From NCBI GenBank assembly GCA_035527835.1, contig DATKZS010000140.1:1-64000 (forward strand): DNA of 64,000 nt, in the 5' to 3' direction. The position numbers were made by a program, and so were the translations under genes. Numbering within the stretch: the first letter of the stretch is position 1; each line of letters opens with the position of its first letter. This document shows, in pieces, positions 6,124 to 63,766 of this stretch. The DNA is from DATKZS01 sp035527835 [NCBI: bacterium] (lineage in GTDB: Bacteria > RBG-13-61-14). The notes beneath the pieces were generated by a model that ran no database searches, was not told the DNA's origin, and saw only the letters and a list, made by a program, of their open reading frames with translations.

Positions 6124-6200
6124 ATTTTTTGACAGGATTTACAGGATTCTCGGAAAGTGTAAACCGATCTTCTTTCATCCTGTAAATCCTGTCAAAAAAT
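6124..6200. repeat. Long hairpin H1 (ACAGGAT family)
   Basis: A perfect 24-nt inverted repeat (6124-6147 with 6177-6200) with a 29-nt loop. Each arm contains the word ACAGGAT twice (GACAGGATTTACAGGAT), so the arm is itself a direct repeat. It lies between radical SAM copy 1 and the promoter of copy 2. Confidence 0.9.
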
Positions 6201-6380
6201 CTTTTCATGATTTCAATTGAACCGCCAAGGCCATGTTTTGGTTGCGGCCAAAGGCCGCGCTGTGATCTCCGGATGCAGGCCGGAGGCCGCGCCACAATTA
6301 AGCATTTCCGACATGTATTCTGCGCCCCCAGGCTCGGCTGGAAGTGCTACATAATTAGTGCTCCGGCTCGGCCTGGGAGT

Positions 6381-6409
6381 TTGAAACCGGCGCGAGCCCA
6401 TGCTAATAT
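6381..6409 (+). promoter_or_regulatory. Promoter of radical SAM copy 2
   Basis: TTGAAA (6381-6386), 17-base spacer, TAATAT (6404-6409), with TG one base before the -10. This is the best match to the sigma-70 consensus among the three paralog promoters. Confidence 0.72.
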
Positions 6410-6602
6410 AATTAGATCAAGGGCCTACATCCGAATTCTCCAGGAAGGTTCCCGTAATTTTTGATGAATTATTTTAGGGCCTGTTTGGACAAGGATGCCC
6501 ACATGGCGCGCCCTGTGGTCCTCCAAGGGGGAGCGGCAGGCCGGCATGGGTGTCGCGGTCAAGGGTTCGCGGCGAAACGTGAACCATCCTTCAGGATAAA
6601 CC
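6410..6602 (+). promoter_or_regulatory. Long conserved 5' leader of radical SAM copy 2
   Basis: A 193-nt leader, collinear with the copy 1 leader and sharing the same blocks (see 4390-4583). It ends in TCAGGATAAACC before the ATG. Copy 3 lacks most of this leader. Confidence 0.5.
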
Positions 6603-8048
6603 ATGGCTAACGTCCTCTTCATCCAGAATGATTATTATCCTTGGCTGGGCGTGATGTGGCTGAGCGCGGTGCTCAAGCGTTACGGACACCAGGCGCGGTT
6701 GGTGACGGCGTTCAGCGAGGCGCAGGTGAGGCGCGCGGTGCGGCGGATCAAGCCGGACCTGGTGGCGATGCACACCATCACCGGGGCCCATAAATTCTCG
6801 TTGCGCGCGGCGGCTGCGGCCAAGGAGGCGTTGCCGGGGGTCAAGGTGATCCTGGGCGGTCCGCACGCCACGTTTTTTCCGGAGATTATAGAGGATCCGG
6901 CGGTTGATTTCGTGGGCCGGGGCGAGGGCGAGTACGCGATGCTGGATTTGTGCAACCGGCTGGACTCCCGCGGCCCGGTTGATGACATCGCGAACATCTG
7001 GGCCAAGATTGACGGCCGTGTCGTTGAAAACGACGTGCGGCCCCTGGTCGAGGACCTGGACGGCCTTCCCTTCCCGGACCGGGAGCTTTATTCGGCGAGG
7101 CAATCCACGCCGCTGGACATGATCTCCTTCATGGCGGGCCGCGGTTGTCCCCATCGTTGCAGCATTTGTTTTAACGAGAAGAACATGGGGTTGTACCGGG
7201 GCAAGGGGCGCTACGTGCGTATGCGCAGCGCGGAGAACGTGATCGCGGAGATCGAGGAGGTCCGCCGCCGCTATCACAACTCCGCGCTCCGTTTCGAGGA
7301 CGACACTTTCACGCTCAAGCGGGACTGGCTGCACAATTTCCTGGACCAGTACCAGGGCCGGGTGGAGCTGCCCTTTTTCATCGGCACACGCGCCGACGCG
7401 CTCGACGCGGAGACGATCACCCATCTCCGCCGGGCCGGATGCTACATGGCGGTGTTCTCCGTGGAGTCCGGCTCCGAGCGGGTCCGCAACGGCATCCTCC
7501 GCAAGAACATCTCCACCGCATCGCTCATCCAGGCGGCGGAACTGCTGCACGGCGCGGGCATCCCTTTCCAGACCACCAACATCCTGGGCATCCCCAGCGA
7601 AACCGTGGAGGAAGGCCTGATGACCGTGAATTTTAACATCGAGATCAAGACCGACAACCCCTACTTTTCCGTGTTCCAGCCCTACCCTTCCACCAGCATC
7701 GCCGAGACGGTGAAAAAGGAGTGGGGCCTCGCCGACCTGAACCCGGACATGATCTCCGACAGTTTCCATTCCTGGAGTCCGCTCAGCCACGATCCCCAGG
7801 TGCGCCAGCTCGCCAATCTCCATAAGTTCGCTTACTGGACAATCAAATATCCCGGCCTCCTCCCCCTGGTCAAACGCCTGATCAAGCTCCCGCCCAATCC
7901 CGCCTTTATCGCAATCCATCGTGCCGCCCACATGTTCGTATATTCCCGCCACGCCCATCTGCCCTTGTGGAAAGGATTCACCACCGGCATGAAGGTCAGC
8001 CTGTCCAGTCCCTTCTTCCAATTCCTCCAGAAATTCCAGGGGCGCTGA
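6603..8048 (+). CDS. B12-binding radical SAM protein, tandem copy 2
   Basis: 481 residues, with the same domain order as its neighbours: cobalamin-binding-like N-terminus, radical SAM cluster Cys at 182, 186 and 189 (GRGCPHRCSICF), family-specific C-terminus. By eye roughly four in five residues match copy 1. The most divergent short stretch lies just before the cluster (residues about 166-177: SARQSTPLDMIS here against LEGRAQPLRIAY in copy 1), which may affect substrate choice. FVGRGEGEY replaces FVCRGEGEY, removing a cysteine near residue 104 that the other copies keep. It has its own promoter and a long leader. Confidence 0.88.
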   Translation: MANVLFIQNDYYPWLGVMWLSAVLKRYGHQARLVTAFSEAQVRRAVRRIKPDLVAMHTITGAHKFSLRAAAAAKEALPGVKVILGGPHATFFPEIIEDPAVDFVGRGEGEYAMLDLCNRLDSRGPVDDIANIWAKIDGRVVENDVRPLVEDLDGLPFPDRELYSARQSTPLDMISFMAGRGCPHRCSICFNEKNMGLYRGKGRYVRMRSAENVIAEIEEVRRRYHNSALRFEDDTFTLKRDWLHNFLDQYQGRVELPFFIGTRADALDAETITHLRRAGCYMAVFSVESGSERVRNGILRKNISTASLIQAAELLHGAGIPFQTTNILGIPSETVEEGLMTVNFNIEIKTDNPYFSVFQPYPSTSIAETVKKEWGLADLNPDMISDSFHSWSPLSHDPQVRQLANLHKFAYWTIKYPGLLPLVKRLIKLPPNPAFIAIHRAAHMFVYSRHAHLPLWKGFTTGMKVSLSSPFFQFLQKFQGR

Positions 8049-8155
8049 AGCCAAGGCGCGGGCGTGGCGCCGGCCGCGGGACGCCGGCCGGAGGACCGGT
8101 CCGCAATCAACAATTTCCGACACTTTGACCGCACAGCCCGGATCAGCCGGAGAGT

Positions 8156-8184
8156 TTGTAACCGGTGTGGGCCGATGCTAGTAT
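8156..8184 (+). promoter_or_regulatory. Promoter of radical SAM copy 3
   Basis: TTGTAA (8156-8161), 17-base spacer, TAGTAT (8179-8184), with the extended -10 TG. The leader to the ATG is only about 59 nt, lacking most of the conserved element seen in copies 1 and 2. Confidence 0.65.
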
Positions 8185-8243
8185 TATTTTATCGAGGGGC
8201 TGTATCAGTATTCTTCTTGAACGCACCCTTTTAGGCGGAAATC

Positions 8244-9689
8244 ATGGCCAACGTCCTCTTCATTCAGAATAACTATTTTAATTGGCTGGGGCCGATGTGG
8301 ATCAGCGCGGTGCTCAAGCGTCACGGGCACCAGGCGCGGCTGGTGACGGTGTTCAGCGAGGCGCAGGTGAGGCGCGCGGTGCGGCGGATCAAGCCGGACC
8401 TGGTGGGCATGCACACCCTCACCGGGGCCCATAGATTCTCGTTGCGGGCGGCCGCGGCGGCCAAGGAAGCGTTGCCGGGAGTCAAGGTGATCCTGGGCGG
8501 TCCGCACGCCACGTTTTTTCCGGAGATTGTAAAGGATCCGGCGGTTGATTTCGTGTGCCGAGGCGAGGGGGAGTATGCAGTTCTCGACCTGTGCAACCGT
8601 CTGGACGCGGGCGGCCCGGTGGATGACATTGCGAATATCTGGGCCAAGATTGACGGCCGCATCGCCGAAAATGACGTTCGGCCGCTGCTCGAGGACCTGG
8701 ACAGCCTTCCTTTTCCGGACCGTGAGCTTTATTGGGAGGGCCAGCCCCGGCCGCTGCGCACCGCCTATTTCATGGCCGGCCGCGGCTGTCCCCACCGCTG
8801 CGCCATGTGCTTTAACGAGAAAAACATGGGGTTGTACCGGGGCAAGGGGAGCTATGTTCGCATGCGCAGCGCGGAGAACGTGATCGCGGAGATCGAGGAG
8901 GTCCGCGGCCGCTATGGCAATACCACGCTCTATTTCGAGGACGACACTTTCACGGTCAAGCGGGACTGGTCGCGTGCTTTCCTGGACCAATACCGGAGCC
9001 AGGTGGGTCTGCCCTTTTTCATGCAAACGCGCGCCGACAAGCTCGACGCGGAGACGGCCTCACAGCTCCGGCGGGCCGGATGCTACCTGGCGGGGTTCTC
9101 CGTGGAGTCCGGCTCCGAGCGGGTGCGCAACGGTATCCTCCGCAAGAACATCTCCACCGCTTCGATCATCCAAGCGGCGGAACTGCTGCACGGCGCCGGC
9201 ATTCCTTTCCATGCCACTAATATCCTGGGCATTCCCGGCGAAACCGTGGAGGAAGGGTTGATGACGGTAAATTTAAACATCAAGATCAAAACCGACAATC
9301 CGTGGTTTTCCGTGTTTCAGCCTTATCCTTCCACCAGTATCGAGGAGGCGGTCAAGCGGGAGTGGGGCCTCGATAACCTGAACCCGGACATGATGTCCGA
9401 CAATTACCACTCGTGGAGCATATTCAACCATGATCCCCAGGTCCGCCAGCTCGCTAATCTCCATAAGTTCGCCTATTGGACCGTCAAGCATCCCGGGCTT
9501 CTTCCCTTGGTCAAGCGTCTGATCAAGCTCCCGCCCAATCCCGCCTTTATCCTGGTCCATCGCATGGCCCACATGTTCGTCTATGCCCACGGCCACCGGC
9601 TGTCCGCGTGGAAAGGATTCTCTGACGGTATGAAGATGAGCTTTTCCACTCCCTTCTTCCAGATGATCCAGAAATTGCAGGGGCGCTGA
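8244..9689 (+). CDS. B12-binding radical SAM protein, tandem copy 3
   Basis: 481 residues and the same architecture as copies 1 and 2; cluster Cys 182, 186 and 189 in GRGCPHRCAMCF. It is closer to copy 1 than to copy 2 at several positions (NNYFNWLGPMWISAVLKRH; EGQPRPLRTAYF) but has its own changes (FMQTRADKLD, HATNILGIPG). The gene starts after AGGCGGAAATC. A CCG-type Fe-S protein follows after 185 bp, so electrons for reductive radical SAM or downstream flavin chemistry could be supplied locally; that link is inference. Confidence 0.88.
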   Translation: MANVLFIQNNYFNWLGPMWISAVLKRHGHQARLVTVFSEAQVRRAVRRIKPDLVGMHTLTGAHRFSLRAAAAAKEALPGVKVILGGPHATFFPEIVKDPAVDFVCRGEGEYAVLDLCNRLDAGGPVDDIANIWAKIDGRIAENDVRPLLEDLDSLPFPDRELYWEGQPRPLRTAYFMAGRGCPHRCAMCFNEKNMGLYRGKGSYVRMRSAENVIAEIEEVRGRYGNTTLYFEDDTFTVKRDWSRAFLDQYRSQVGLPFFMQTRADKLDAETASQLRRAGCYLAGFSVESGSERVRNGILRKNISTASIIQAAELLHGAGIPFHATNILGIPGETVEEGLMTVNLNIKIKTDNPWFSVFQPYPSTSIEEAVKREWGLDNLNPDMMSDNYHSWSIFNHDPQVRQLANLHKFAYWTVKHPGLLPLVKRLIKLPPNPAFILVHRMAHMFVYAHGHRLSAWKGFSDGMKMSFSTPFFQMIQKLQGR

Positions 9690-9874
9690 AGGCAGGGCGC
9701 GAGCCTGGCCTGCGGGTCCTGTTTGTGCTTGTCGCGCAACGGCGCTGTGGAGTGCGGAAGCACGGCGCCACACTCCAAAGCGCCGGGGTGGCGCCTTTCG
9801 CCAAGGGCGTTGACTATTCCCGCCTGATTGTGCGAGCATCAATAAGGTCCTGTTCGGCGGGCAAGGAGGCGCAG

Positions 9875-11005
9875 ATGGTCATATCACGCGACAATGATTA
9901 CGCGATGTATCTTTATACCTGCAACCGGTGCCGGAGCTGCGCGGTGGAGCCCTCTCCGGAGCATCGGGCGGTGTGTCCGGCTTATGCGCATTTCGGGTAT
10001 TTCGCATACTCGGGGGGAGGGAAGGGGTACGTGGGCCAGGGGATATTGGAGGGGAAGGTGAAGCCGTCGGCCCAGGCGGCCCAGGTCGCGATGAATTGTC
10101 TGATGTGCGGGGCGTGCGCGGCGGCGTGCCCGCCGGGGTTTGACATCAACGCGTTCGTGCGCGACCTCCGGGACCACCTGGTGGGCGCGGGCTTTTACGC
10201 GAACGATGCGCACAGGAAGCTGGTCGAGAATTTGCGGCGCGCGGGGAACCCGTGGGGGCGGGGGATTTCGCGGGCAGAGCTGCCAGCGTTCACGGGAGAG
10301 CAAGAGCTGCTGGTGTGGCGCGGCTGCCGGGAGCGGATGAGGGACGAGGTGATGCCGGCGGTGGCGAAGGTGCTTGACGCGGCACAGGTGCGGTGGGGGG
10401 TGCTCCCGGACGAGCCCTGCTGCGGGGCGCCGGGGCTGGAGCTTGGCGACCGCGGGTGGTTCGAGGCACAGGCGGAGCGGGTGATCGCTGCGATCAACGG
10501 ATCGGGCGCGGGGCGGGTGTTGTTTTTATGCCCTCACTGCGCGGCGGCGGTGGGGGCGGATTATCCGTTGCTGGTCGGTGACGTGGAGGCTGAGCCGGTG
10601 ACGCTTCCGGCGCTGTTCGCGGAGCTGGTCGGGGATGAGCGGATCATGCTTACGGGCGGCCCGGAGCAGACAGTCACGTATCATGATCCGTGCAAGCTGG
10701 CGCGGTGGCTTGAGGAGGTTGACTCGGCGCGGGAGGTGCTGGGGGCGATGGAGGGGGTGGAGCTGGTTGAGATGGAGCGGAGCGGGGAGTGGGGCTGGTG
10801 CTGCGGGTCGGGCGGGGTGATGGCGGCGGTGGCGCCGGAGCTCGCTGCGTTCACGGCGCGGGAGCGGATCGAGGAGGCGCGGGAGACGGGGGCGGAGGTG
10901 ATCGTTACGGGGTGCTCGTACTGCACGGAGATGCTGCGGGGGAAGTCGGCGCGGAGGCAAAAGGTCACGCATTTGGCGGGGCTCATGGCGGAGAGGATCA
11001 AGTAG
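9875..11005 (+). CDS. CCG-domain Fe-S oxidoreductase (GlpC/HdrD-like)
   Basis: 376 residues. The N-terminus carries two 4Fe-4S sites: C16-x2-C19-x2-C22 with a later VCP, and C75-x2-C78-x2-C81-x3-C85-P. The C-terminal half has the two cysteine-rich CCG modules (EPCCGAPG with an upstream partner, and YHDPCKLAR ... WCCGSGG). Such proteins pass electrons from a flavin dehydrogenase to quinone or a heterodisulfide-type acceptor. The start at 9875 follows AAGGAGG by five bases; an open frame further upstream is intergenic. It begins a group with an SCP2-like protein, a small subunit and a GMC oxidoreductase. A paralog at 59224 has its first cysteines at the same positions (16, 19, 22). Confidence 0.88.
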   Translation: MVISRDNDYAMYLYTCNRCRSCAVEPSPEHRAVCPAYAHFGYFAYSGGGKGYVGQGILEGKVKPSAQAAQVAMNCLMCGACAAACPPGFDINAFVRDLRDHLVGAGFYANDAHRKLVENLRRAGNPWGRGISRAELPAFTGEQELLVWRGCRERMRDEVMPAVAKVLDAAQVRWGVLPDEPCCGAPGLELGDRGWFEAQAERVIAAINGSGAGRVLFLCPHCAAAVGADYPLLVGDVEAEPVTLPALFAELVGDERIMLTGGPEQTVTYHDPCKLARWLEEVDSAREVLGAMEGVELVEMERSGEWGWCCGSGGVMAAVAPELAAFTARERIEEARETGAEVIVTGCSYCTEMLRGKSARRQKVTHLAGLMAERIK

Positions 11006-11120
11006 GGGCGGTTGCGAGTCCACTGAGATTGTTATGAACCACAAAGACACAGAGTTAAGAAGGTTGGAAAAGTAAGAAAGGTAAGAAGAGTGAGAAGGGT
11101 TAGAGCCGGGAGGAGATAAT

Positions 11121-11573: not shown

Positions 11574-11651
11574 GTCATGATCCGGGCGTTTGACAGGCGG
11601 GGGCGTGGCTGATATTAATCCGGGCGGAACGATCAAGTGCGTTTGAAGGCT

Positions 11652-11723
11652 AACCACGGATAAACACAGATTAACACGGATATGAAAAATTAAATCTGTG
11701 TTCATCCGTGTTTATCTGTGGTT
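11652..11723. repeat. Long hairpin H2 (GATAAACACA family)
   Basis: Arms of 30 nt (11652-11681 and 11694-11723) around a 12-nt loop. Each arm is a 10-nt-period repeat of the type CACRGATDAA. It lies after the SCP2-like gene and ends 27 nt before the next ATG, so it forms part of that gene's leader. Confidence 0.88.
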
Positions 11724-11750
11724 TTTAAAAAAATCGCCAAGGAAGGAACT

Positions 11751-13717: not shown

Positions 13718-13727
13718 AATAGGGGTA

Positions 13728-13798
13728 GGACAGACATTCTTGTCTGTCCACCGTTGTGATCGGTGCGCTAGTCGCGGACTGGCAGGAATGCCTGTCCT
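13728..13798. repeat. REP palindromes (TGTC-stem family)
   Basis: GGACAGACA-TTCT-TGTCTGTCC at 13728-13749 (perfect 9-bp stem), then a related GGCAGGAATGCC palindrome at 13781-13792 followed by TGTCCTACC. They lie just after the GMC gene, at the left border of the RAYT island. Confidence 0.85.
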
Positions 13799-13820
13799 AC
13801 CGACAACGGGGGGCTCGGAC

Positions 13821-17278: not shown

Positions 17279-17625
17279 TACAGTACCCTCCGTCTGAATT
17301 GAAAAATAGGGAGGAGCGGCGGCGCCCCTTCCCCGACCAATATTATCAATTGTATTCTAACATTCAAAGTGGCGGAGAATCAATCAAGGCCACGCCTTTT
17401 GATCAGCTTCAGAAAATCCATCAAATTTTCCGCCCCGGAGGGGCGGGCGAGAGTAGCCCAGCGATTCATCGCTGGGTGGGCTGGCCCCATAGATGCCTCA
17501 AGTCCCGGAGGGACGGTCGAGGTTTCGTCCGTCCCTTGCGGGACTTGGCGGTTGACCGGTCCCGGGTTACCAGGAATGAATTCCTGGGCTACTATCGAAA
17601 TGTCCCTCCGGGACTACCCCTCCCG
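17279..17625. repeat. Multi-hairpin mosaic
   Basis: No gene is seen. From about 17435 the region is a series of short palindromes: CAGCGATTCATCGCTG, GTCCCGGAGGGAC, a GTCCCTTGCGGGAC type and CAGGAATGAATTCCTG, with TTCA/TGAA in the loops. It is the same kind of structure as the clusters at 19.4, 21.3 and 52.1 kb. Confidence 0.7.
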
Positions 17626-21895: not shown

Positions 21896-21942
21896 GATAC
21901 TTTCCTTTGTTTTTCATCCGCGTTCATCCTCCCCATCCGTGT

Positions 21943-23487
21943 TCATCTGCGTTTTTTCTTCTGCCCAACCTTCCCATACATCTCCACGCTCATCCCCGGG
22001 TTCATCACGTTTTCCGGGTCCAGCGCCTTCTTGATTTTGCCGAGGGTGGGCGCGAGTCCGCCGGCGCGCTTCAGGAGTTCTCCCGGCTTATAGGACATGT
22101 CGAAGCGGATGGGCACCGCGCCGTAGCGCTTGTAGGCCTGTTCCATGTAGCGCCTGCGGATGTCCACGGCCTTTTGTTTTTCCTTTTCGTCGGCCTCGCC
22201 GGAGATGAAGGGCGTCATGCGCAGGAAGATGGAGCGGCCGTGGTCAATGACGTGGCTGTAGTAGGCGAGCCCGAGCTTCAAGCCGGACTTACGGAGGAAC
22301 TTGAGGCCCCACTGTTCGAGCCCGGCGATCTTTTTGGGGTCCGCGATCACGATGGGCATCATGGGGTAGCCCTCGCCGTACCCGCCCATGAACTGGGTGG
22401 TGGGCTGGTGGTCGCGGTAGTGGTCGGCGAAGAACTTGAACGCGCCGGGCCATTTTTCCTGGCACTCTTTGGTCCACACCCTTCCGCCGCCCTCCACCGC
22501 CAGCCGCTCGAACGTCTTCTCCGCGGCCTCCACGTGCTCCCGGAAACCCGCGATGGTCGGCACTACCGCGATGTACGGCCGCGCGTCAGGCGGCGTCCAC
22601 GGGTCGTACACCAGCACGTCCGACGGCGCGCCCCGCCCGTACACCCCGAGGTGGTCAATGATCGTGTAAAGCACCCAGTGCCAGCAGCAGATGTGCTGCA
22701 CCAGGTTGCCGCGCGCCGCCCGGATCATGAACTTCAGCGCCGACGGATAATCGTTGAACGCCGCGATCGGCAGCGCCCGCGCCTCGCCCAGGCTGTACGC
22801 CCGCACCGCGCCCGCCGTCACCACGCCCAGCGTCCCCGCCGAGTCAATGAACATGTTCTTGATGTTGGGGAACCCGTTGGTCGGCGAATGCCAGCCCGTG
22901 CCCGGATACGTGTCGCCGAACGCGCGGCTGCCCGTGTGCAGCATGGTCCCGTCGGCCAGCACCACCTCCAGTCCCAGAATGTCATCCAGCGGACCCGCGC
23001 TGCGGTGGCTGTTCACCGCCGTCATCAAATAATTCCCGAGCGCGCTGATCCCCGGCGGGAACGAGCCCATGGTGCAGCGCAGGTTGCGCTTGCCGAGCTC
23101 CAGAGCCAGCCGGCCGATGGTCACGCCCGGCTCGATCACCGCGTACGCGCCGTCCTCGTTCACCTCCCGCACCCGGTCCATCGCCATCGTGTCAAGCACG
23201 ATGCCCCCGAACCAAGCGTATGTCCCCGGTTCCTGCGTCCCCGACGCCACCGGCGTCACCGGAACCTTGTGCTTCATGGCCACCGCCAGCACCTGCTGCA
23301 CCTCGGCCACGCTCTTCACCCGCACGACGAAGTCCGGCATCGCCTTGGGAAAAGCCATGCTCGTGCCCGAGTACGAATACAGCACCGCCGGGTTGTCCGT
23401 CGCCCGCTCCGGCCCGACAGCCTTCTGCAGCGCCGCCAGGATTTTTTTCCGCGTGCCCTTGTCCGCCTTGAAACGACTGGTAATCAT
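21943..23487 (-). CDS. FAD-linked oxidase (VAO/GlcD superfamily)
   Basis: 514 residues. The N-terminal PCMH-type FAD domain is visible: DFVVRVKSVAEVQQVLAVA, PVTPVASGTQEPG, GIVLDTMAMDRVREV, AVIEPGVTIGRL and SFPPGISALGNYLM. The C-terminal substrate domain ends with KIKKALDPENVMNPG. The closest type by appearance is 4-cresol dehydrogenase/vanillyl-alcohol oxidase rather than glycolate oxidase. No cytochrome subunit is adjacent. The start has GGAGAGG upstream. A lone arm of the CATCTGCGTTCAT repeat (about 21914-21955) overlaps the last codons, so the basic C-terminus (GQKKKRR) is repeat-derived. Confidence 0.82.
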   Translation of the reverse strand: MITSRFKADKGTRKKILAALQKAVGPERATDNPAVLYSYSGTSMAFPKAMPDFVVRVKSVAEVQQVLAVAMKHKVPVTPVASGTQEPGTYAWFGGIVLDTMAMDRVREVNEDGAYAVIEPGVTIGRLALELGKRNLRCTMGSFPPGISALGNYLMTAVNSHRSAGPLDDILGLEVVLADGTMLHTGSRAFGDTYPGTGWHSPTNGFPNIKNMFIDSAGTLGVVTAGAVRAYSLGEARALPIAAFNDYPSALKFMIRAARGNLVQHICCWHWVLYTIIDHLGVYGRGAPSDVLVYDPWTPPDARPYIAVVPTIAGFREHVEAAEKTFERLAVEGGGRVWTKECQEKWPGAFKFFADHYRDHQPTTQFMGGYGEGYPMMPIVIADPKKIAGLEQWGLKFLRKSGLKLGLAYYSHVIDHGRSIFLRMTPFISGEADEKEKQKAVDIRRRYMEQAYKRYGAVPIRFDMSYKPGELLKRAGGLAPTLGKIKKALDPENVMNPGMSVEMYGKVGQKKKRR

Positions 23488-24716: not shown

Positions 24717-24867
24717 AAAATGCAACCACCAAGACACCAAGGGCAAGAAGATAGAATGTAGAATATGGAGTATAAAAGACCTGAGAATCGCGCCGCCTCC
24801 GTCTTCATTCTATATTCTATCTTCTGAATTCTATATTCTCCCTTGGTGTCTTGGTGGTTGCATTTTT
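24717..24867. repeat. Long hairpin H3 (CACCAAGACACCAAG family)
   Basis: Outer arms 24717-24743 and about 24840-24867 pair perfectly over 27 nt; each contains CCACCAAGACACCAAG, a 9-nt direct repeat. Between them lies a second imperfect inverted repeat built of TAGAATATAGAAT-like words. It separates two divergent genes. Confidence 0.88.
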
Positions 24868-25259: not shown

Positions 25260-25343
25260 GCCGCAGATGAACGCAGATGAACGCAGATTAAGAAGAAAAC
25301 CTCCTCAATATCTTATCTGTGTTCATCTGCGTTCATCTGCGGC
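25260..25343. repeat. Long hairpin H4 (GCAGATGAAC family) containing a start codon
   Basis: Arms 25260-25292 and 25312-25343 pair over about 32 nt. Each arm is a 10-nt-period repeat GCAGATGAAC. Near the loop the left arm has G where full complementarity would need A, giving a G-T (G-U) pair. The only usual in-frame start codon of the next gene is the ATG in the left arm. Confidence 0.9.
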
Positions 25344-28552: not shown

Positions 28553-28557
28553 TAAAA

Positions 28558-28635
28558 ATTATTAACAAGGATATTCAGGATTCCCAGGATAATTTATTTT
28601 TAATCCTGAACATCCTGAATATCCTTGTTAATAAT
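28558..28635. repeat. Long hairpin H5 (AAGGATATTCAGGAT family)
   Basis: Arms of 33 nt (28558-28590 and 28603-28635), 30 paired, 12-nt loop. It lies between convergent genes, where it could end transcription from both sides. Confidence 0.88.
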
Positions 28636-28660
28636 TCTTGTTCAGGTGATGAAACAGCCT

Positions 28661-29468: not shown

Positions 29469-29543
29469 AACGCCAAGACGCCAAGTCCGCCCAAAAAAAT
29501 ATTATTTTAAAAACAATCTTTGCGGTCTTGGCGTCTTGGCGTT
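29469..29543. repeat. Long hairpin H6 (CGCCAAGACGCCAAG family)
   Basis: Arms 29469-29490 and 29521-29543 pair over about 22 nt with one or two mismatches; each holds CGCCAAGACGCCAAG, a 9-nt direct repeat. It sits inside the birA-coaX operon. Confidence 0.85.
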
Positions 29544-36828: not shown

Positions 36829-36918
36829 AATAGTATCGCACCGAGGCACAGAGAACACAGAGGATAAAAAGAAATAAAAATAATCTCCGTGTTCTCTGTG
36901 CCTGTGTGCGATACTATT
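36829..36918. repeat. Long hairpin H7 (AGGCACAGAGAACACAG family)
   Basis: Arms 36829-36865 and 36883-36918 pair over about 36 nt, beginning AATAGTATCGCAC and continuing with 9-10-nt words (AGGCACAGAG, AACACAGAGG). It lies between two plus-strand genes. Confidence 0.9.
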
Positions 36919-41843: not shown

Positions 41844-41922
41844 AAGCGCAAAGGCGCAAAGAGCGCAAAGAAATAGAAAATATTCTTTTCTTGTCCTTTG
41901 CGTTCTTTGCGCCTTTGCGCTT
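41844..41922. repeat. Long hairpin H8 (GGCGCAAAG family)
   Basis: Arms of 27 nt (41844-41870 and 41896-41922) with one difference, a G against T (G-U in plus-strand RNA). Each arm repeats GCGCAAAG at 8-10-nt spacing. It lies between convergent genes. Confidence 0.9.
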
Positions 41923-42393: not shown

Positions 42394-42468
42394 GCACAGA
42401 GGCACAGAGTACACAGAGATATATATTAATATTAATAATATTTCTCTGTGATCTCCGTGCCTCTGTGC
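42394..42468. repeat. Long hairpin H9 (AGGCACAGAG family)
   Basis: Arms 42394-42419 and 42443-42468 pair over 23 of 26 nt. The word GAGGCACAGAG is shared with H7. It sits between thiolase and epimerase genes, within one transcription direction. Confidence 0.88.
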
Positions 42469-43772: not shown

Positions 43773-43871
43773 GTAACACAGATGAACACAGATGAAACAG
43801 ATAAACACGGATAAGAAATTTGTTTATAAATCCGTGTTCATCCTCTTTCATCCGTGTTCATTTGTGTTTAA
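43773..43871. repeat. Long hairpin H10 (CAGATGAACA family)
   Basis: Arms 43773-43812 and about 43830-43871, imperfectly paired (about 32 of 40). Each arm is a 10-nt-period series (CAGATGAACA, CAGATGAAA, CAGATAAACA). It belongs with H2 and H4 and lies between acyl-CoA dehydrogenase and thiolase. Confidence 0.87.
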
Positions 43872-48801: not shown

Positions 48802-49007
48802 AACCGCCAAGACGCCAAGAGCGCCAAGGATTATTTTTAAACACGATTTTAAGAGGGCTTGAGTGCGAATGTTTTTTGCTTGGCGCTCCCGTCGGCCGGT
48901 CCGCCAAGCCGGTTGGGGCCAACGCTCCGGAGCTGTTCTTTGCCGGGCCGCGAAGACACATCATGATTTACTTGGCGATCCTTGGCGCTCTTGGCATCTT
49001 GGCGGTT
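48802..49007. repeat. Long split hairpin H11 (CGCCAAGACGCCAAG family)
   Basis: Arms 48802-48831 and 48978-49007 match at 29 of 30 positions but are 146 nt apart. The space between holds AT-rich sequence, a GCTTGGCGCTCCCG fragment and a GTCGGCCGGTCCGCC stretch. It lies between divergent genes. Apart from this element the 48626-49040 region has nothing I can support. Confidence 0.85.
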
Positions 49008-50732: not shown

Positions 50733-50751
50733 CCGGCTTCAAGATTTTTTT

Positions 50752-50823
50752 AACCGCGGAGACGCAGAGAACGCGGAGATTTTTCAAATAATTTATCTCT
50801 GCGTTCTCTGCGTCTCCGCGGTT
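50752..50823. repeat. Long hairpin H12 (CGGAGACGCAGAGAACG family)
   Basis: Arms 50752-50780 and 50795-50823 match at 28 of 29 positions (the one difference is G against T), extended outward by TTTTTT and AAAAAA. The arm reads as 8-10-nt words (CGGAGACGCAGAGAACG). It separates the CruF-like and GHMP kinase genes. Confidence 0.92.
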
Positions 50824-50886
50824 AAAAAACATCCATTTTTGTCCACGCCCCCGAATTTTTGTAGGATGTTCTCAGGGAGACCCATT

Positions 50887-57627: not shown

Positions 57628-57656
57628 GCTTCATCGCCCTCAACGTAATGTTGAAG

Positions 57657-57688: not shown

Positions 57689-57808
57689 GTTGCCTGCGCC
57701 TTATGCTTGAATCGTGCGCTAATCTGTGGCTATGATGTCCGCTGCATCCCGGATCCGACGAAAATTCTGACGCGAGCGAAATTTTTTACGGGCAAAAATG
57801 GAGGACTA

Positions 57809-59152
57809 ATGGCCATGCACGTTAACTTGGAGCGATTCTGGAAGGCCGCCGCAGTCGCCGCGGTGGTCCTGCTTCCGGCCTTGTTAGTCCGGGCCGATGA
57901 GAATGGCGGCCCCATGACCCTGGACCGGGTAATGGATAATGTGGTTATCGCCGGTAAGGATTTAAAGGCCGTGAACGGCGCGGACATCGAAGCATTGCGG
58001 CTGATGAGCTTCAAAGATGGGAAACTCGCGCCCGTCCCCTTCCAGGTGGACGAGAAGACCCCGGTCGGCGAGTACGTCATGATCGCTCCCGACGGCTCGC
58101 GCGGCCATGACGACGGCAAGCTCGACTTAAACGACGAGCTGGTGTTCATGGCCAAGGACGCGGGCGACCGCGGCGATCCCTCCGCCTCCGGCCTAGACCC
58201 TGAAGCATGGAACGAGATCGCGCTTACTGATCCCGTGACCGGCGGCAAAGGATGGGCGTATCTCATAGCCTTTGACGAAAACCCGCCCGCGCTCTCGCCG
58301 GTCCGTTACATGACTTACCAGGAGCTCGCGGACCACGACGAGCTCACCACGCCCTATTACTCCCTGCGCTTTCCCAAGAACAACGTGTTCATGAGCGACA
58401 TCATCATCACAAAGGCCGCCGGGGGCAACGGCCAGGACATCCTGGACAAGATCAAGATGCGCTCCGGGGTGGCCATGCTCCGCGGCGCCTTCTCCGTGGA
58501 CCGGACCGAGGAGGACTTCTCTCACAAGGTGCTGGGCGTGCTCACCGGCCCGGTGCGCGTCATCCGCCGCACCGAGACCCGCCTGTCCCTCATCCTCTCC
58601 CTCAAGTCGCCCGCCGCCATCGTGAACGGCAGCTTCTACCCGGCCTGCTTCCAGTTCCCCAGCATGTTGAGCCTGCCCTTCAGAATGGACATGATCGCCT
58701 CCGACGCCTACATGCGCCAGGGCTGGGACCTCAACCGCAACGCCATCGGCCTCAAGTTTTACAGCAACCTGAACCCGGAGCCGGTGGTCTATGACGGCAA
58801 GATGGGGCCAGCCGAGCAGAAGCTCGCGGCCAACCGCAACACGCTCCGCTGGGCGCTCGGCACCGGGCCACAGGGCACCTTCATGTTCGAGGGCGAGTGG
58901 GACCAGAAGTCGCCGATCAAGGCCCTGCTCTACTACGAGGACGACCTCTCCCGGGCCGAGCCGCCGGAGGACGACCCGGGCATCATGGGCATCGCCTACC
59001 GCCTCGAAGACCTCCTCAAAATGGGCGGCGACGAATACCCGTTCAACATCGTCAACTACATCGTGCCCAATTTCGACGGCGACATCCAAAAGGCGCTCCG
59101 GGTATTTGATCATCCGCTGGAAGTGAAAGTGAAGGGAGAGAGTAGCAAGTAG
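57809..59152 (+). CDS. Exported protein of unknown function
   Basis: 447 residues with a signal peptide (AAAVAAVVLLPALLVRA). A D-D-G-K-L-D-L-N-D-E-L-V-F-M-A-K-D-A-G-D segment resembles a calcium-binding loop. The remainder is beta-rich with no membrane segment. I do not recognise the family. TGGAGG precedes the ATG at 57809. Its last residues (VKGESSK) lead into hairpin H13, which starts three bases after the stop. It precedes the CCG/FAD-oxidase operon and may share its transcript. Confidence 0.7.
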   Translation: MAMHVNLERFWKAAAVAAVVLLPALLVRADENGGPMTLDRVMDNVVIAGKDLKAVNGADIEALRLMSFKDGKLAPVPFQVDEKTPVGEYVMIAPDGSRGHDDGKLDLNDELVFMAKDAGDRGDPSASGLDPEAWNEIALTDPVTGGKGWAYLIAFDENPPALSPVRYMTYQELADHDELTTPYYSLRFPKNNVFMSDIIITKAAGGNGQDILDKIKMRSGVAMLRGAFSVDRTEEDFSHKVLGVLTGPVRVIRRTETRLSLILSLKSPAAIVNGSFYPACFQFPSMLSLPFRMDMIASDAYMRQGWDLNRNAIGLKFYSNLNPEPVVYDGKMGPAEQKLAANRNTLRWALGTGPQGTFMFEGEWDQKSPIKALLYYEDDLSRAEPPEDDPGIMGIAYRLEDLLKMGGDEYPFNIVNYIVPNFDGDIQKALRVFDHPLEVKVKGESSK

Positions 59153-59154
59153 CC

Positions 59155-59212
59155 AGTAGTCAGTAGCAAGGGAAGACAAGGCCGGTCCCCTCTTCCCTGG
59201 CTACTGGCTACT
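59155..59212. repeat. Long hairpin H13 (GTAGCCA family)
   Basis: Arms 59155-59176 and 59191-59212, 20 of 22 paired, 14-nt loop. Built of GTAGCCA/GTAGTCA words at 7-9-nt spacing that continue leftward. It starts three bases after one stop and ends 12 nt before the next ATG. Confidence 0.87.
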
Positions 59213-59223
59213 CTTGTGAAATT

Positions 59224-60549
59224 ATGGACCTGACCCGACTCAAAGCCCTGCGCTCCGACATGGAGAAGTGCTTCCGGTGCTCGCTGTGCAAGATGGCGCC
59301 GCTGCCGGTGGTGCGCCATCCGTCTTTCACCGACTGTTGTCCGGCGGCGCGGCTCTATCATTTCCACGGTTTTTCCGGCTCGGGCAAGCAGATCATGGCG
59401 CTGTCGCTGCTGGACGGGCGGATCCAGGCGGACGAGGCGCTGGCCAAGATCGCGTTCGCCTGCACCGCTTGCGGCTATTGCGACGTGGCGTGCAAGTTCA
59501 TCATGGACGCCGAGCGGCAGCAGGTGAACGCGGCGCTGCGCGAGTACCTCACCGATGCCGGCCTGGCGCCCCCGGCCCTCCAGAAGATGGCCGCTGACCT
59601 GGAAAGAATCGGCCGGCCCGAATCGGGCGTGCCCCGGTCGGGCGTTAGTTGGAGTAATGAGCTGCCGGTAAAACACCTGCCGCATGAAAAGGCCGATACC
59701 CTCATCCTTGCCGGCTGCGTCAGTTACGGCGACATGATGGCCGCGCGCACCGCCCGGCGCCTAGCCAGGATTCTCATCCATGCCGGGATTGAGGTGGGCG
59801 TGCTTTCCGAAGGCGAGCCGTGCTGCGGCCTGCCAGCGTACTGGGCCGGGAACCGCGGCATCTTCTCCCGCATGGCCTCTAAAAACGCCGCGATGCTGGA
59901 GGGCCTCGGCGCGCGCACCGTCGTCATGGCCTCCGGCTCATGCCTGGGAGCCGTTCGCGGCAAGTACCCGGAGTACGCCCGCGCCCCCGGCGTGGATGTC
60001 ATTCACGCCACCGAGATGCTAGCCCGCCTCATTGAGAAGGGACGGCTGCGCATGAGAAAGCCCGTGAACATGACGGTTACCTATCACGATCCCTGTTACC
60101 TGGGCCGGCAGAGCGAGCCGTATGTTCAGTGGGAGGGCGAGGAAAAAATCGCGCTCGGCGTCATGACCTATACCGACCCGCCGCGGCAGGTGAACCGCGG
60201 CACCTGTGGCGTCTATGACGCGCCACGCGCCGTGCTTAAAGCTATCCCGGGACTGAAGCTCATCGAGATGTACCGCATCCGCGAGTATTCCTTTTGCTGC
60301 GGCGCCGGCGGCGGCGCGCCCGCGGCTTTTCCCGAGCTCGCCCGCTCCGCCGCCATCCACCGCCTGAGCGAGGCCTGCGCGGTCAAGGCCGAGGTCATGG
60401 TGACGGCCTGCGCCTACTGCGCGGCCCATTTCCGAAAAACGCAGGCCGGGTTGGAAGCCTCCGCCAACTCGGAGGCCGGACTGGACCGCAAGCTTCCGGT
60501 CGCGGACGTGATTGACCTCGTATTCGAGGCTGCGGGACTCGAGGATTAA
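59224..60549 (+). CDS. CCG-domain Fe-S oxidoreductase, second paralog
   Basis: 441 residues. Fe-S ligands: C16-x2-C19-x2-C22 with a later D-C-C-P, and C80-x2-C83-x2-C86-x3-C90. Two CCG modules follow: EPCCGLPAY, and YHDPCYLGR with YSFCCGAGGGAPAAF. It is paralogous to the protein at 9875 (same first cysteine positions). No ribosome site precedes its ATG, which lies just after hairpin H13. Two FAD oxidases follow with 4-nt and 1-16-nt gaps, forming a dehydrogenase complex like glycolate or lactate oxidases, with this protein passing electrons on. Confidence 0.87.
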   Translation: MDLTRLKALRSDMEKCFRCSLCKMAPLPVVRHPSFTDCCPAARLYHFHGFSGSGKQIMALSLLDGRIQADEALAKIAFACTACGYCDVACKFIMDAERQQVNAALREYLTDAGLAPPALQKMAADLERIGRPESGVPRSGVSWSNELPVKHLPHEKADTLILAGCVSYGDMMAARTARRLARILIHAGIEVGVLSEGEPCCGLPAYWAGNRGIFSRMASKNAAMLEGLGARTVVMASGSCLGAVRGKYPEYARAPGVDVIHATEMLARLIEKGRLRMRKPVNMTVTYHDPCYLGRQSEPYVQWEGEEKIALGVMTYTDPPRQVNRGTCGVYDAPRAVLKAIPGLKLIEMYRIREYSFCCGAGGGAPAAFPELARSAAIHRLSEACAVKAEVMVTACAYCAAHFRKTQAGLEASANSEAGLDRKLPVADVIDLVFEAAGLED

Positions 60550-60553
60550 CGCC

Positions 60554-61951
60554 ATGAGCGCGGACGCTAAGCTCCTCGATCAATACAGTGTAACTAATCC
60601 GCTGCTAACGGACCGCGTGCCGCCGGTGCGCGTGGAGCGGCCGCGCGACGTGGCCGAGCTGAAGGAGATGGTGCACCGCGCTAACGGCAACGGCGCGGGC
60701 CTGGTCGCCATGTCCTCCGCCTCGCCGCACACCAGGGGCATCGCCTGCGCCGCGCCGCATGCCCTGGTGGATCTGTCGAGTTGGAAAAAGATCGGGTTCA
60801 TAGACCGGCGCAACCGCGTGGCCATGATCGAGCCGGGCGTGACTTATGGAGAGCTGCTCGCCGCGCTCGCGCCCCACGGACTCACCTTGTCCATGCCGCT
60901 CGCGCCGCGGAGCGGCAAGAGCGTGCTGGCGGCGGTCATGGACCGCGAGCCCACGACCTGGCCCAACAAGCAGTGGGACATCGCCGACCCGCTGGCCAGC
61001 GCCGAGATCGTGTTCGGGACCGGCGACATTTTCCGCACCGGCGCCGCCGGCGGGCCGGGGACGCTGGAGCAGCAGCGGGCCGCGGGCGGGGCGCAGAAGT
61101 CGCCGATGGGACCGTCGCAGACCGATTTCCAGCGCGTGGTCCAGGGCTCGCAAGGCGCGATGGGCATCGCAACCTGGATCACGGTCCGCGCCGAGGTCAA
61201 GCCGACCATCCAGGAACCGCGGCTGCTCGGGGCCGACGCCCTTGAAAAGCTCATCCCCTTTGTTTACGACGTGCAGCGTCCGTGGCTCGGCGAACACTCA
61301 TTCATCATGGACCGCGCGGCGCTAAGGATGTTCATGGCAGGCAAGGATGCCGTAGCACTGCCCGCTTATGTCTGCCTTCAGAACGTCGCGGGCTTCGAAC
61401 GACGGCCGCGCGAGCGGGTGGATTACCAATTGCAGGACATCGCGGAGATCGCGGCGCGCCATGGCTTAAAACTCACGGATGCGCTCGGGAACGTCACCGC
61501 TCAAGAGCTTCTGAACCGGGCCACGCGTCCGTGCGGAGAGCGGGACTGGCGGCACGCGCTCTCCGGGCACTGCCTGTCCGTCTTTTTTCTCACGACGCTC
61601 GACCGCGCGCGGCGCTTCATCGGGATTTTCCAGGAGCTCGCCGAAAAGAGCGGAGTTGAGAGCGGGCGGACCGGGGTTTATTTGCAGCCCGTGGTGCAGA
61701 ACCACGCCTGCCACGTCGAGCTCCTGGTCCCGTTCGACCCGGCTCATGCGGGCGAGGTCGAACGCATGAGAGCACTGGAGCAGGAGGCGGTGGCGTCGCT
61801 CATGGACGCCGGCGCATTTTTCAGCCGTCCCTACGGAGCGGCCGAGAAGATCGCGATGGAGAAAAATCCGCTCCACCTCGCGGTCCTGAAAAAAATCAAA
61901 AACATTTTCGACCCCGGCCGCGCGCTCGGCCCGGGGCGGCTCGGATTGTGA
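60554..61951 (+). CDS. FAD-linked oxidase (GlcD-like)
   Basis: 465 residues. The FAD-binding PCMH domain shows RVERPRDVAELKEMVHRANG, AMIEPGVTYGELLAALAPHG, S-V-L-A-A-V-M-D-R-E and Q-G-S-Q-G-A-M-G-I-A-T; the C-terminus ends with IKNIFDPGRALGPG. No covalent-FAD His motif is evident. It is the first of two adjacent FAD oxidases served by the CCG protein. GAGG lies nine bases before the ATG. Confidence 0.85.
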   Translation: MSADAKLLDQYSVTNPLLTDRVPPVRVERPRDVAELKEMVHRANGNGAGLVAMSSASPHTRGIACAAPHALVDLSSWKKIGFIDRRNRVAMIEPGVTYGELLAALAPHGLTLSMPLAPRSGKSVLAAVMDREPTTWPNKQWDIADPLASAEIVFGTGDIFRTGAAGGPGTLEQQRAAGGAQKSPMGPSQTDFQRVVQGSQGAMGIATWITVRAEVKPTIQEPRLLGADALEKLIPFVYDVQRPWLGEHSFIMDRAALRMFMAGKDAVALPAYVCLQNVAGFERRPRERVDYQLQDIAEIAARHGLKLTDALGNVTAQELLNRATRPCGERDWRHALSGHCLSVFFLTTLDRARRFIGIFQELAEKSGVESGRTGVYLQPVVQNHACHVELLVPFDPAHAGEVERMRALEQEAVASLMDAGAFFSRPYGAAEKIAMEKNPLHLAVLKKIKNIFDPGRALGPGRLGL

Positions 61952-61967
61952 CATGGAACGGAGCATC

Positions 61968-63692
61968 ATGCATACGCTTAAGCCGGATGAAATCAGGTCG
62001 CTGGAAGACGTGGTCGGGCCGCAGTGGGTCAATGCCGACCCCTGCATGATGGACACCTATTCCTTTTACATGAACCCGGAGATCCTGAACCGCGACGGGA
62101 GCCTGTGGCTGCCGCGTCCGGCGGCGGTGGTGATGCCGGCGAGCACGGACGAGGTGGCGGCTCTGGTGCGGGCGGCGAACCGGCTGAAGCTCATGGTCAA
62201 GCCCATCTCCACCGGCTGGAGCGCGGCGGCGGCGGCGTCGCGCGACCGGGTGGTGGTGCTGGACCTGAAGCGCATGGACAAGATCATTGACATTGACGTC
62301 AAGAACCAGGTGGCGGTGGTCGAGCCATACGTCAAGGCCATCATCCTGCAGACCATCTTGTGGACGCAGGGCCTGAACCTGCACGTGGTCTCGTGCGGCG
62401 GCAACCACTCTCCGCTCGCCTCCGTCACCTCCGCGTGGGGCACCGGGCTCGACGGCCCGGTGATGAGCTACAGCGGCAGGAACCTCTTAGGCGCCGAGTG
62501 GGTGCTGCCGACCGGCGAGGTGCTTACTCTGGGCAGCGCCGGCGCCGGCGCGGGCTGGTTCTGCGCGGACGGCCCGGGCCCGTCGCTCCGTGGAATCATG
62601 CGCGGGTACATGGGAGCGTTCGGCGGGCTGGGGGTATTCACCAAGGCCGCGCTCAAGCTCTACCGGTGGGACGGCCCGGCGGAGATCGAGGCGGAGGGCT
62701 CGTCGCCGCATTACACGCTGGCCAAAGACCTGCCGTCCAACATGGACCTGTTCATGCTCTCGTTCCCGGACGCCAAGGCCATGGCGGACGCCGGCTACAA
62801 GATGGGGGAAGCCGAGATCACGTATGCCGACTTCCGCCTGCCCGCGTTCATGAGCGCGCTCGGCACGACCGAGCACAACCTGGACTTGAAGCGCGCCTGG
62901 GAGACCGGCGTGATGCAGAAGATCGCGCGCTATAACATGATCATCGCAGTGATCGGGCACACCCGGCGCGAGTTCGAGTGGAAGATGGCGTCGCTCAAGG
63001 AGATCCTGGCCGAGACGCGCGGCGTTAACCTGCCGATCCAGCTCGACACCTCGGTCAAGTCGCTCCGGAACATGAAGCTGATATTAAAATTCGTGAACGA
63101 TCCACTCAAGCTGCTCCGCTGGGTGCCTGCTCTGCAGGACATCGTCCGCAACCTTCCCATCGGCGCGAAACAGCGACGCAAGGCGCTGTCCGAGCTGTTC
63201 TGGGTCATGCTCCGGCACGCCAACAACGTGCAGGGCAACTTCCGGCCGTCGCAGGCCATGTTTACGAGCATGGGCACGTTCGACACCTGGGACCTCGGAA
63301 TCAGGCAGTCGGACTGGATCGCGGAGCGCAAGCAGAAGTACATCAAGGAAGGCGTGTTCCTCGACGACGGCGGCGACTTGGGCTGCGGCGGGACCTTCGA
63401 GCACGCGCACATGGGTTACCTCGAAGGCATCGTGCTCTACTCGACCAAGCGGCCCGAATCGGTCCAGGCCGCGTCCGCCGTGATCGAGGAAGCGGTGCAG
63501 GCCTGCATTGACGAGGCGTTCGGTATCCCCATCGCCGGCTTCGGAAAGGACATGAACGCCCGCCTCGGCCCCCACTCCGGCAACTATCATCTGTGGATGC
63601 AGAAGATCAAGGCCGCGCTCGATCCCAATACCGCGTCTGATCCGTTCTTTTACTCCGAAGGAGAGAAGGAACAAGTAAAAAGTAAAAAGTAA
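61968..63692 (+). CDS. FAD-linked oxidase, second of the pair
   Basis: 574 residues. FAD domain: AAVVMPASTDEVAALVRAAN, V-K-P-I-S-T-G-W-S-A-A-A-A-A-S, A-V-V-E-P-Y-V-K-A-I-I-L-Q and G-A-F-G-G-L-G-V-F-T-K. The central and C-terminal parts differ strongly from the neighbour, so the pair is unlikely to be a simple duplication. I prefer the ATG at 61968 (CGGAG upstream) over that at 61953. The last residues (EKEQVKSKK) run into hairpin H14. Likely forms a complex with the preceding oxidase and the CCG protein. Confidence 0.84.
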   Translation: MHTLKPDEIRSLEDVVGPQWVNADPCMMDTYSFYMNPEILNRDGSLWLPRPAAVVMPASTDEVAALVRAANRLKLMVKPISTGWSAAAAASRDRVVVLDLKRMDKIIDIDVKNQVAVVEPYVKAIILQTILWTQGLNLHVVSCGGNHSPLASVTSAWGTGLDGPVMSYSGRNLLGAEWVLPTGEVLTLGSAGAGAGWFCADGPGPSLRGIMRGYMGAFGGLGVFTKAALKLYRWDGPAEIEAEGSSPHYTLAKDLPSNMDLFMLSFPDAKAMADAGYKMGEAEITYADFRLPAFMSALGTTEHNLDLKRAWETGVMQKIARYNMIIAVIGHTRREFEWKMASLKEILAETRGVNLPIQLDTSVKSLRNMKLILKFVNDPLKLLRWVPALQDIVRNLPIGAKQRRKALSELFWVMLRHANNVQGNFRPSQAMFTSMGTFDTWDLGIRQSDWIAERKQKYIKEGVFLDDGGDLGCGGTFEHAHMGYLEGIVLYSTKRPESVQAASAVIEEAVQACIDEAFGIPIAGFGKDMNARLGPHSGNYHLWMQKIKAALDPNTASDPFFYSEGEKEQVKSKK

Positions 63693-63766
63693 AAAGGCAA
63701 AAATAAATGCCGCCACCCTGGCCTTTTCTCTTCCATTTTTTCCTTTTTACTTTTTCCTTTTTACTT
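63673..63766. repeat. Long hairpin H14 (AAGTAAAA family)
   Basis: Arms 63673-63703 and about 63736-63766 pair over about 28 of 30 nt. Words AAGTAAAA repeat at 7-8-nt spacing. The left arm encodes the last residues of the FAD oxidase; the right arm ends two bases before the next ATG. Confidence 0.88.

Follow-up and report, generated by a model that had tools for sequence, protein, structure and literature searches.

Facing heptamer arrays form short, dispersed and possibly REPIN-like hairpins in bacterial intergenic spacers, with GxxExxY as a candidate partner enzyme

What are long intergenic hairpins whose arms are themselves built from short repeated words, and how do they come to lie between genes? 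The question is raised by a stretch of 64,000 nucleotides (nt) from the bacterium DATKZS01 sp035527835 (contig DATKZS010000140.1, positions 1 to 64,000), hereafter the window, in which a preliminary description listed fourteen such hairpins, H1 to H14. Our answer, which we hold at even confidence, is that they are short dispersed elements resembling REPINs (repetitive extragenic palindrome doublets forming hairpins), which appear in, vanish from and are rewritten within intergenic spacers, with the protein GxxExxY as the likeliest partner enzyme.

Ungapped inverted repeats with a score of at least 16 and a loop of at most 130 nt were sought in the window and in 20 dinucleotide shuffles of it. 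Thirteen hairpins were recovered, all on the earlier list and none extra; the shuffled windows averaged 0.05, and none had more than 1. The preliminary description had made an excess over shuffled sequence its check, and this excess was found; the word-built hairpins of the window are real and far above chance. The fourteenth, listed at 48802 (H11, 48805..48987), proved to be a pair of facing arrays, three CGCCAAG units on the + strand at 48805 and two on the − strand at 48971, which lie 142 nt apart and have no long ungapped stem. H10 (listed at 43773) is weak, with a score of 17, and H13 only just reaches 16.

The fourteen had been described as distinct word families sharing one design. The design with differing words stands, but ten of the fourteen are variants of a single grammar, the heptamer CRCNRAK in arrays of two or three units, in the forms CACAGAG, CGCAGAT, CACGGAT, CGCGGAG, CACCAAG, CGCCAAG and CGCAAAG. 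Several arms are low in a fixed-period test because their linkers differ by 1–2 nt. Besides the H11 pair, facing arrays of three units were read in H2 (11652..11723; CRCRGAT, loop of 12 nt), H4 (25260..25343; CGCAGAT), H8 (41844..41922; CGCAAAG), H9 (42394..42468; CACAGAG) and H12 (50746..50829; CGCGGAG/CGCAGAG), the last with the best stem in the window (score 32). H6 (29469..29543) joins CGCCAAG arrays of two and three units, and H7 (36829..36918) joins CACAGAG arrays of three and two units and has an outer non-word stem of ∼11 nt. Two-unit arrays form H3 (24717..24866; CACCAAG), with a TAGAATRT inverted repeat nested in its loop (24746-24764 / 24807-24825), and the weak H10 (43775..43868; CACAGAT-type, two units in each array). 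The remaining four hairpins use the words ACAGGATTT, AAGGATATTCAGGAT, GTAGYCA and AAGTAAA: H1 (6124..6200; arm ATTTTTTGACAGGATTTACAGGAT, made of GGATTTACA words, 95 nt past the stop codon at 6029), H5 (28557..28636; AAGGATATTCAGGAT words, stop codon 5 nt upstream), H13 (59155..59212; GTAGYCA words, stop codon 3 nt upstream) and H14 (63673..63766; AAGTAAA words, overlapping the stop codon at 63692). Two arrays have no partner: two CRCRGAT units at 21935..21951 (− strand), and CACAAAG followed by CACAGAG at 11040..11054 (+ strand), which may be chance since two-unit arrays arise in shuffles too.

To characterize the grammar, arrays were counted in 1.6 Mb of DNA from the window, from stretches of viral contigs and from other genomes, most of it chosen for holding such words. 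Duplicates were removed: any locus with over 30% of its sampled 40-mers in common with a longer one was dropped before arrays, polarity, linkers and placement were counted. This set contained 368 arrays of at least three units (three units in 346, four in 17 and five in 5), and none were found in shuffles, one per locus. In a 2.3-Mb set there were 481 such arrays vs. 3 in shuffles, and 316 two-unit arrays vs. 84, so that two-unit matches alone are weak evidence. The linker is 3 nt after units ending in AT (649/666) and 1–2 nt after units ending in AG (196/202), and AAC or GGA precedes 329 of the 481 arrays. Polarity is inward: among array pairs within 200 nt, 60 face each other (+−), 3 point outward and 44 are tandem (28 and 16), and the word sits in the 5′ arm in 56 of 57 core hairpins. 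The basic module is a directional array, mostly of three CRCNRAK heptamers and mostly preceded by AAC or GGA, and the element is two such modules facing each other across a loop of ∼10–110 nt.

Is the stem what is maintained? Within arrays, the variable positions are far more uniform than expected; position 7, for instance, is uniform in 93 of 94 arrays of genome G423 (28.7 expected). The two arms are of the same type more often than expected in G423 (13/16, 5.6 expected), in viral contigs (16/20, 8.2 expected) and in the window (3/5, 1.0 expected), and within the shuffle range in G199 (7/11, 4.4 expected) and at other loci (10/13, 7.1 expected). Units that pair share no more identity than units that do not (0.921 vs. 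0.925, 57 pairs), no position-by-position covariation between arms was detected in CRCNRAK arrays, and on the transcribed strand of 30 hairpins there is no wobble preference (19 GT vs. 24 AC mismatches). The element is probably two facing copies of a directional module, with stem pairing as a by-product: the stem forms because the two modules face each other.

The pattern CRCRGATRAACRCRGATRAACRCRGAT is present in 63 viral-contig stretches and, when one mismatch is allowed, in 19 of the 198 G001-phylum genomes and 13 of 201 genomes of the G021 phylum, whose founding loci are from a Desulfuromonadales and a Dehalococcoidales metagenome-assembled genome; a reversed control pattern gave no match in either phylum among the matches listed. 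The preliminary description had pointed to similar words in other phyla, and the grammar does recur there, patchily. Copy numbers are uneven, with 200 in G423, 149 in its sister G199 and 0–14 in the 37 other relatives searched. As a comparison sample we used 80 argH loci of other genomes (among the matches listed; 1.47 Mb, argH identity at best 58%). None of the 14 hairpins with a score of at least 18 at these loci has two CRCNRAK units, and the CRCNRAK hairpin type is therefore confined to certain genomes. Contigs with CRCNRAK hairpins also hold arms of other periodic words, among them TAGTGGG, TCAGGAG, GTGACTG, GGATTTC and GGTACACA.

Orthologous spacers can be compared between G423 and G199, which are ∼80–92% identical in long aligned stretches, and with the cousin genome G082. 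The preliminary description had expected copies to be absent at orthologous sites in relatives; this was observed for similar elements in these three genomes, but the window's own copies lie outside the comparison. Clean empty sites were found in G199 opposite the G423 CRCNRAK hairpins at L253:4474 and L255:15645 (locus handle and position), and array-free yet otherwise altered sites opposite L244:2432 and L243:9540 (G199) and L257:10080 (G082). Other sites are occupied in both sisters by different words. At L253:1163, L253:3316 and L244:10768 the recognizable heptamers of the hairpin have GGAT in G423 vs. AGAT in G199, with one degenerate G423 unit at L244:10768; at L253:1163 differential loss from a composite is possible, because G423 keeps a piece of a 42-nt tandem-array spacer (see below). 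The hairpin at L257:17067 has TCAGCTN words in G423 and GGAATGC words in G199 and G082 within the same spacer, and another heptamer hairpin has AGGGTGT in G423 and AGGGTGC in G199.

Across 37 orthologous G423–G199 spacers, the element was present in both genomes at 10, in G423 only at 5, in G199 only at 1 and in neither at 21 (Fisher p = 8e-5), and none of 70 shuffled spacers scored positive. The corresponding counts were 2 in both, 11 in G423 only and 13 in neither for G423–G082 (shuffled positives 0/48), and 0 in both, 2 in G199 only and 18 in neither for G199–G082 (shuffled positives 2/35); the between-species association is therefore shown for the sister pair only. By our own reading of the alignments, none of the 10 shared G423–G199 sites has an identical word set: one base differs in concert at four, the words are different at three, and at three one word is common and the others differ. 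Shared sites with different words can mean in-place rewriting or independent arrival in a few insertion-tolerant spacers. Flanks that match up to the arms at L253:3316 and L244:10768 favor rewriting. Such fast en bloc change of words at fixed sites would be an unusual form of concerted evolution.

More elaborate arrangements also occur. Nested composites at L253:4474, L255:15645 and L281:10140 consist of a CACAGAG-type pair with an inverted repeat of TGGAATRA words in its loop, an arrangement comparable to 24717-24866 in the window. Tandem arrays with a ∼69-bp spacing at L243:9541-9714, L244:2433-2597 and L246:1989-2152 alternate CACAGAT-type and CRCGGAT-type triple heptamers, which are separated by a similar AAAGAC-rich spacer of 42 nt. 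A dispersed element of ∼330 bp (L257:1259-1591) has many copies in G199 and G423 and carries CRCAGAG-like words near its ends.

Which gene could serve such elements? Five intervals bounded by arrays were considered as candidate autonomous copies (L247, L104, L086, L245 and L248). Pfam searches of three of them gave a GxxExxY gene (PF13366, TIGR04256) between + and − arrays in L247, from G423, a radical SAM gene in L104 and no clear family in L086. Seven GxxExxY genes or fragments lie within 50 nt of arrays in the DNA examined. When, in a first look, the 160-nt flanks of ten GxxExxY loci (L382 and the nine plasmid loci described below) were compared, their match exceeded that of all control window pairs at six (L382, L403, L405, L407, L409 and L411); it was equalled by 2 of 66 controls at L410, 6 of 78 at L406, 18 of 78 at L408 and 86 of 91 at L404, where a hairpin of score 23 lies just downstream of the gene. 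A two-unit array was present in the 150-nt flanks of 4 of the 10 loci vs. 2 of 139 control windows.

To avoid selection by arrays, plasmid records were searched by the GxxExxY protein alone; this gave 8 records with 10 places, from Fusobacteriota, Gemmatimonadota, Bacteroidota, Spirochaetota and Alphaproteobacteria. Nine places were read together with as much as 20 kb of DNA on either side (in Gemmatirosa, two of three places). With a cut-off of 16 that was fixed after a first look at the data, 5 of 9 plasmid GxxExxY genes had matching flanks, as did 2 of the 231 remaining genes called in these regions (p = 4e-7). When genes are simply ranked by flank match, with no cut-off, 5 of the 9 come first in their own region. 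In Bacteroides finegoldii, the gene lies between + and − CACAGAG arrays, CACAGAGGACGCAGAGGACACGGAG and its facing partner, and the CACAGAG word forms further hairpins at other places of the 24.8-kb record. The GxxExxY gene of one Gemmatirosa locus, apparently broken, has a complete hairpin on either side, both made of one word that recurs in the region. The Persicobacter and Prevotella flanks carry AT-rich words, not CRCNRAK, the Treponema locus has only an 11-nt inverted flank match, and the Sphingomonas gene, inside a fab operon, has CGCGAAG-like words upstream only (by eye). The Sphingomonas gene stands alone between fabD and fabG of the fatty-acid operon (L415:19989-20417), a position that would suit a mobile gene of the stand-alone kind.

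Seven residues (G31, E34, Y37, D73, E83, K85 and Q97) are invariant in 10 GxxExxY proteins, the others being 24–56% identical to the first, and fit the signature of an intact PD-(D/E)XK-type active site. No phage match was obtained with two seeds, one locus was found in viral contigs by three scans, and searches of PDB and PADLOC gave no relatives at the limits used. In the literature searched, for which here and below partial text was available, no paper linking the protein to repeats was found under the names GxxExxY, TIGR04256 or PF13366.

We propose that the small PD-(D/E)XK-type GxxExxY protein may recognize the arrays and cut them; repair that draws on other copies would then spread the hairpins and make their words uniform or swap them. 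Hairpins arise, vanish and change words in intergenic spacers over short evolutionary times. Array cutting with repair copying would account for the lack of target duplications in the window, the uniform words and the en bloc switches, and the genome of the window would be predicted to carry a GxxExxY gene. More tentative, and held with rather less than even confidence, is the wider proposal of a cross-phylum mobile system in which GxxExxY takes the role that RAYT (REP-associated tyrosine transposase) has for REPINs, cutting word arrays, with repair that copies hairpins and rewrites words en bloc while the sites persist. If true, the GxxExxY link would suggest a function for a curated family of unstated function, and would mean that the REPIN problem has been solved a second time in an unrelated way.

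Several observations count against this role for GxxExxY. Six of the seven array-adjoining genes lie in DNA selected for arrays, L382 alone having been found by protein. Four of the nine plasmid genes fall below the cut-off, with region ranks of 3rd of 18, 6th of 41, 8th of 33 and 14th of 18; the enrichment of two-unit arrays in plasmid flanks is weak (3/9 vs. 19/231, p = 0.04), and the control genes, which come from a crude open reading frame (ORF) caller, are mostly not stand-alone genes. Association was observed for CRCNRAK words and for some that are AT-rich, but not for heptamers of the TAGTGGG type. No GxxExxY gene is present in the window or in 393 kb of array-rich G423 DNA (20 stretches, 16 contigs). 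In two genomes, G286 and G342, the arrays lie inside miniature inverted-repeat transposable elements (MITEs) with inverted ends and flanking duplications (by eye), and another transposase therefore probably moves those. Three findings are new as far as the literature searched goes: the common grammar, the word turnover at orthologous sites and the GxxExxY association, of which the last holds the greatest interest but is also the least secure.

Could all the hairpins be ordinary MITEs, deletion derivatives of insertion sequences in which the arrays are subterminal transposase-binding repeats? The G286 and G342 units are MITEs. In G286 an array pair lies inside a unit of ∼142 bp with the inverted ends CTGATTACCTTACACTT; eight pairs of these ends occur ∼140 bp apart, and the seven read all contain an array pair, six of them with flanking direct repeats of 7–11 nt (by eye). 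Six array places of G286 have a common idiosyncratic middle heptamer, and a further one, in L224, differs. G342 shares the CTGATTACCTTACACTT ends and has a second array-bearing MITE, also with flanking duplications (by eye). The whole-unit insertions and empty sites in G423 would fit MITEs as well, as would the slightly longer direct flank matches of core hairpins outside the window (5.44 vs. 4.90 in controls; at least 8 nt in 5/48); the other periodic hairpins outside the window gave 5.03 vs. 4.59 (37 hairpins). This small excess means that some hairpins may carry duplications. The window hairpins are not MITEs: in 13 hairpins, neither target duplication (direct flank match 4.62 vs. 4.72 in re-paired controls) nor shared terminal inverted repeats (inverted flank extension 3.31 vs. 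3.59) were detected. The 35 end matches of G286 and G342, several of them without a partner, include no clear long-distance pair that could mark an autonomous copy. As a general explanation, MITEs are unlikely.

REPINs come closest in organization to the elements described here: they too comprise inverted doublets, singlets and clusters of genome-specific sequence, with a dedicated gene flanked by repeats (PMC3116915, PMC3733652). The elements differ in their three-heptamer module, which lacks the GTAG/CGTC tag, in the PD-(D/E)XK-type candidate partner and in the absence of arrays at the RAYT-type loci read. That they are themselves REPINs moved by a Y1 (RAYT) transposase is improbable. Inverted doublets, tandem clusters and singlets occur as in REPINs (PMC3116915), and PF01797 was found in 18 of 19 array-bearing genomes vs. 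123 of 179 others of the same sample (Fisher p = 0.016). Y1 transposition is expected to leave no target duplication, and none is seen in the window. However, none of 11 Y1_Tnp loci (8 best-match loci and 3 of the 5 in G199) has a CRCNRAK array of at least two units, the tags GTAG and CGTC occur within 10 nt before only 3 and 1 of 481 arrays, and G199 has 149 array copies with only 5 Y1 matches. RAYT was rejected as the mover, the genome-level correlation being weak and flanking arrays occurring at 0 of 11 loci.

Words might instead grow by polymerase slippage, the second arm being copied by template switching (foldback). Bacterial heptamer abundance has been linked to slippage (PMC4692102), and hairpins of TAGTGGR and TCAGGAN heptamers vary in unit number and match in register at their variable columns. 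In hairpins of other heptamers, arms match better in than out of register in 27 of 38 cases, and variable columns match at 0.682 in register vs. 0.420, both values being inflated by the hairpin finder. The CRCNRAK arrays do not behave in this way: they almost always have three units, one idiosyncratic array recurs at 6 of the 7 places read in G286, and whole pairs are inserted at clean sites. For the hairpins as a class we give slippage and foldback a similarly low probability. In one heptamer hairpin (L139:4971-5140), the left arm reads TAGTGGR and the right arm TAGTGGT throughout, each arm seeming separately homogenized.

The anatomy of such repeats has been reported before. In Geobacter metallireducens, paired sites of 3–5 tandem 7–8-mers on opposite strands (classes 1–3; at variable distance in classes 1 and 2) were attributed in 2009 to unidentified global regulators, perhaps integration host factor (IHF) or HU (PMC2700814). 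Compared by text, its class 2 (three tandem TCTCCGTS[Y]) reads on the other strand as a CACGGAGA-like unit, a CRCNRAK heptamer with one base more; class 3, MTYCTGA, is TCAGRAK in reverse complement; and the class 1 consensus, GTTGCTYN, is similar to GTTRCTS words found in G199. That account differs in covering one genome and proposing possible IHF/HU sites, and its available text has no cross-phylum grammar, word switching or GxxExxY link. The strict polarity, the three-unit grammar and the linker rule do resemble protein recognition, which would fit the proposal of PMC2700814 that an IHF/HU-like nucleoid protein or global regulator binds at such sites. Yet rapid gain, loss and word turnover between sisters, with several words per genome, argue against conserved regulator sites, which we consider quite improbable.

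The preliminary description knew of no mechanism for such hairpins. None was found in the literature searched, but their anatomy was known, from G. metallireducens and from Xanthomonas (PMC4692102). The Xanthomonas GGGAATC arrays are likewise intergenic and mostly of four units; they form 70 convergent inverted pairs in one species and 75 in another, and keep the same gene neighbors with varying sequence; they differ in using one word, which was studied as a G-quadruplex sequence and, in the available text, not tied to a gene (PMC4692102). The P6b stem of the Nostoc tRNALeu intron consists of one of two heptanucleotide motifs, repeatedly swapped in place, but is a single locus inside a group I intron (PMC4476775). 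In Beggiatoaceae, intergenic TAACTGA arrays are patchy in distant lineages, with horizontal transfer suspected; unlike the arrays described here, they are direct, mostly upstream of start codons, with one inverted case (PMC4679880). Geobacter bemidjiensis, by description, has palindromic families and direct repeats of 6–42 nt in 12% of protein-gene spacers (PMC2996986). A literal search of the literature for the words gave one unrelated match only, and the available text of a 2026 hairpin survey (PMC13155455) contained nothing relevant beyond one reference-list entry. Heptamer repeats are thus known piecemeal (Geobacter, Xanthomonas, Nostoc, Beggiatoaceae and Microcystis), with neither an enzyme nor a common description in the literature searched; the shared grammar and the candidate gene make these scattered reports one testable question. 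Rapid en bloc turnover of words would also call for caution wherever these hairpins serve as regulatory or typing markers.

The hairpins occupy all gene arrangements, as had been claimed. In the wider locus set, counted for loci of at least 4 kb, 36 lie in convergent gaps (29.3 expected), 90 in tandem gaps (87.7) and 19 in divergent gaps (28.0), which is near expectation; as read with the crude ORF caller, divergent gaps of the window contain 24717, 25260 and 48802. With the same caller, 59 of 222 clusters are mostly genic vs. 184 expected, and a stop codon lies 3–95 nt upstream of 10 of the 14 window hairpins. Transcript-end devices, either terminators or mRNA-stabilizing 3′ hairpins, would suit this position less than 100 nt after stop codons and the mild depletion of divergent gaps, but are very unlikely given that core hairpins have no T-run excess downstream (TTTT in 9/57, AAAA in 9/57), no preference for GT wobble over AC and paired units no more alike than unpaired ones, and the earlier statement that termination does not explain the hairpins holds.

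Further features of the window were noted. No hairpin of the window matched an Rfam covariance model at gathering score, and the sole Rfam match, to Acido-Lenti-1 (17431-17476, − strand; 46.1 bits vs. a gathering score of 37), lies off any hairpin and gives a hint at the lineage. Two more inverted repeats, at 13724-13801 and 17448-17597, have 26-nt and 28-nt arms in which no words are obvious, and possibly represent another repeat family. Three successive genes for B12-binding radical SAM proteins of 481 amino acids each (4584-6029, 6603-8048 and 8244-9689) are perhaps tandem duplicates, and H1 is placed between the first and the second of them.

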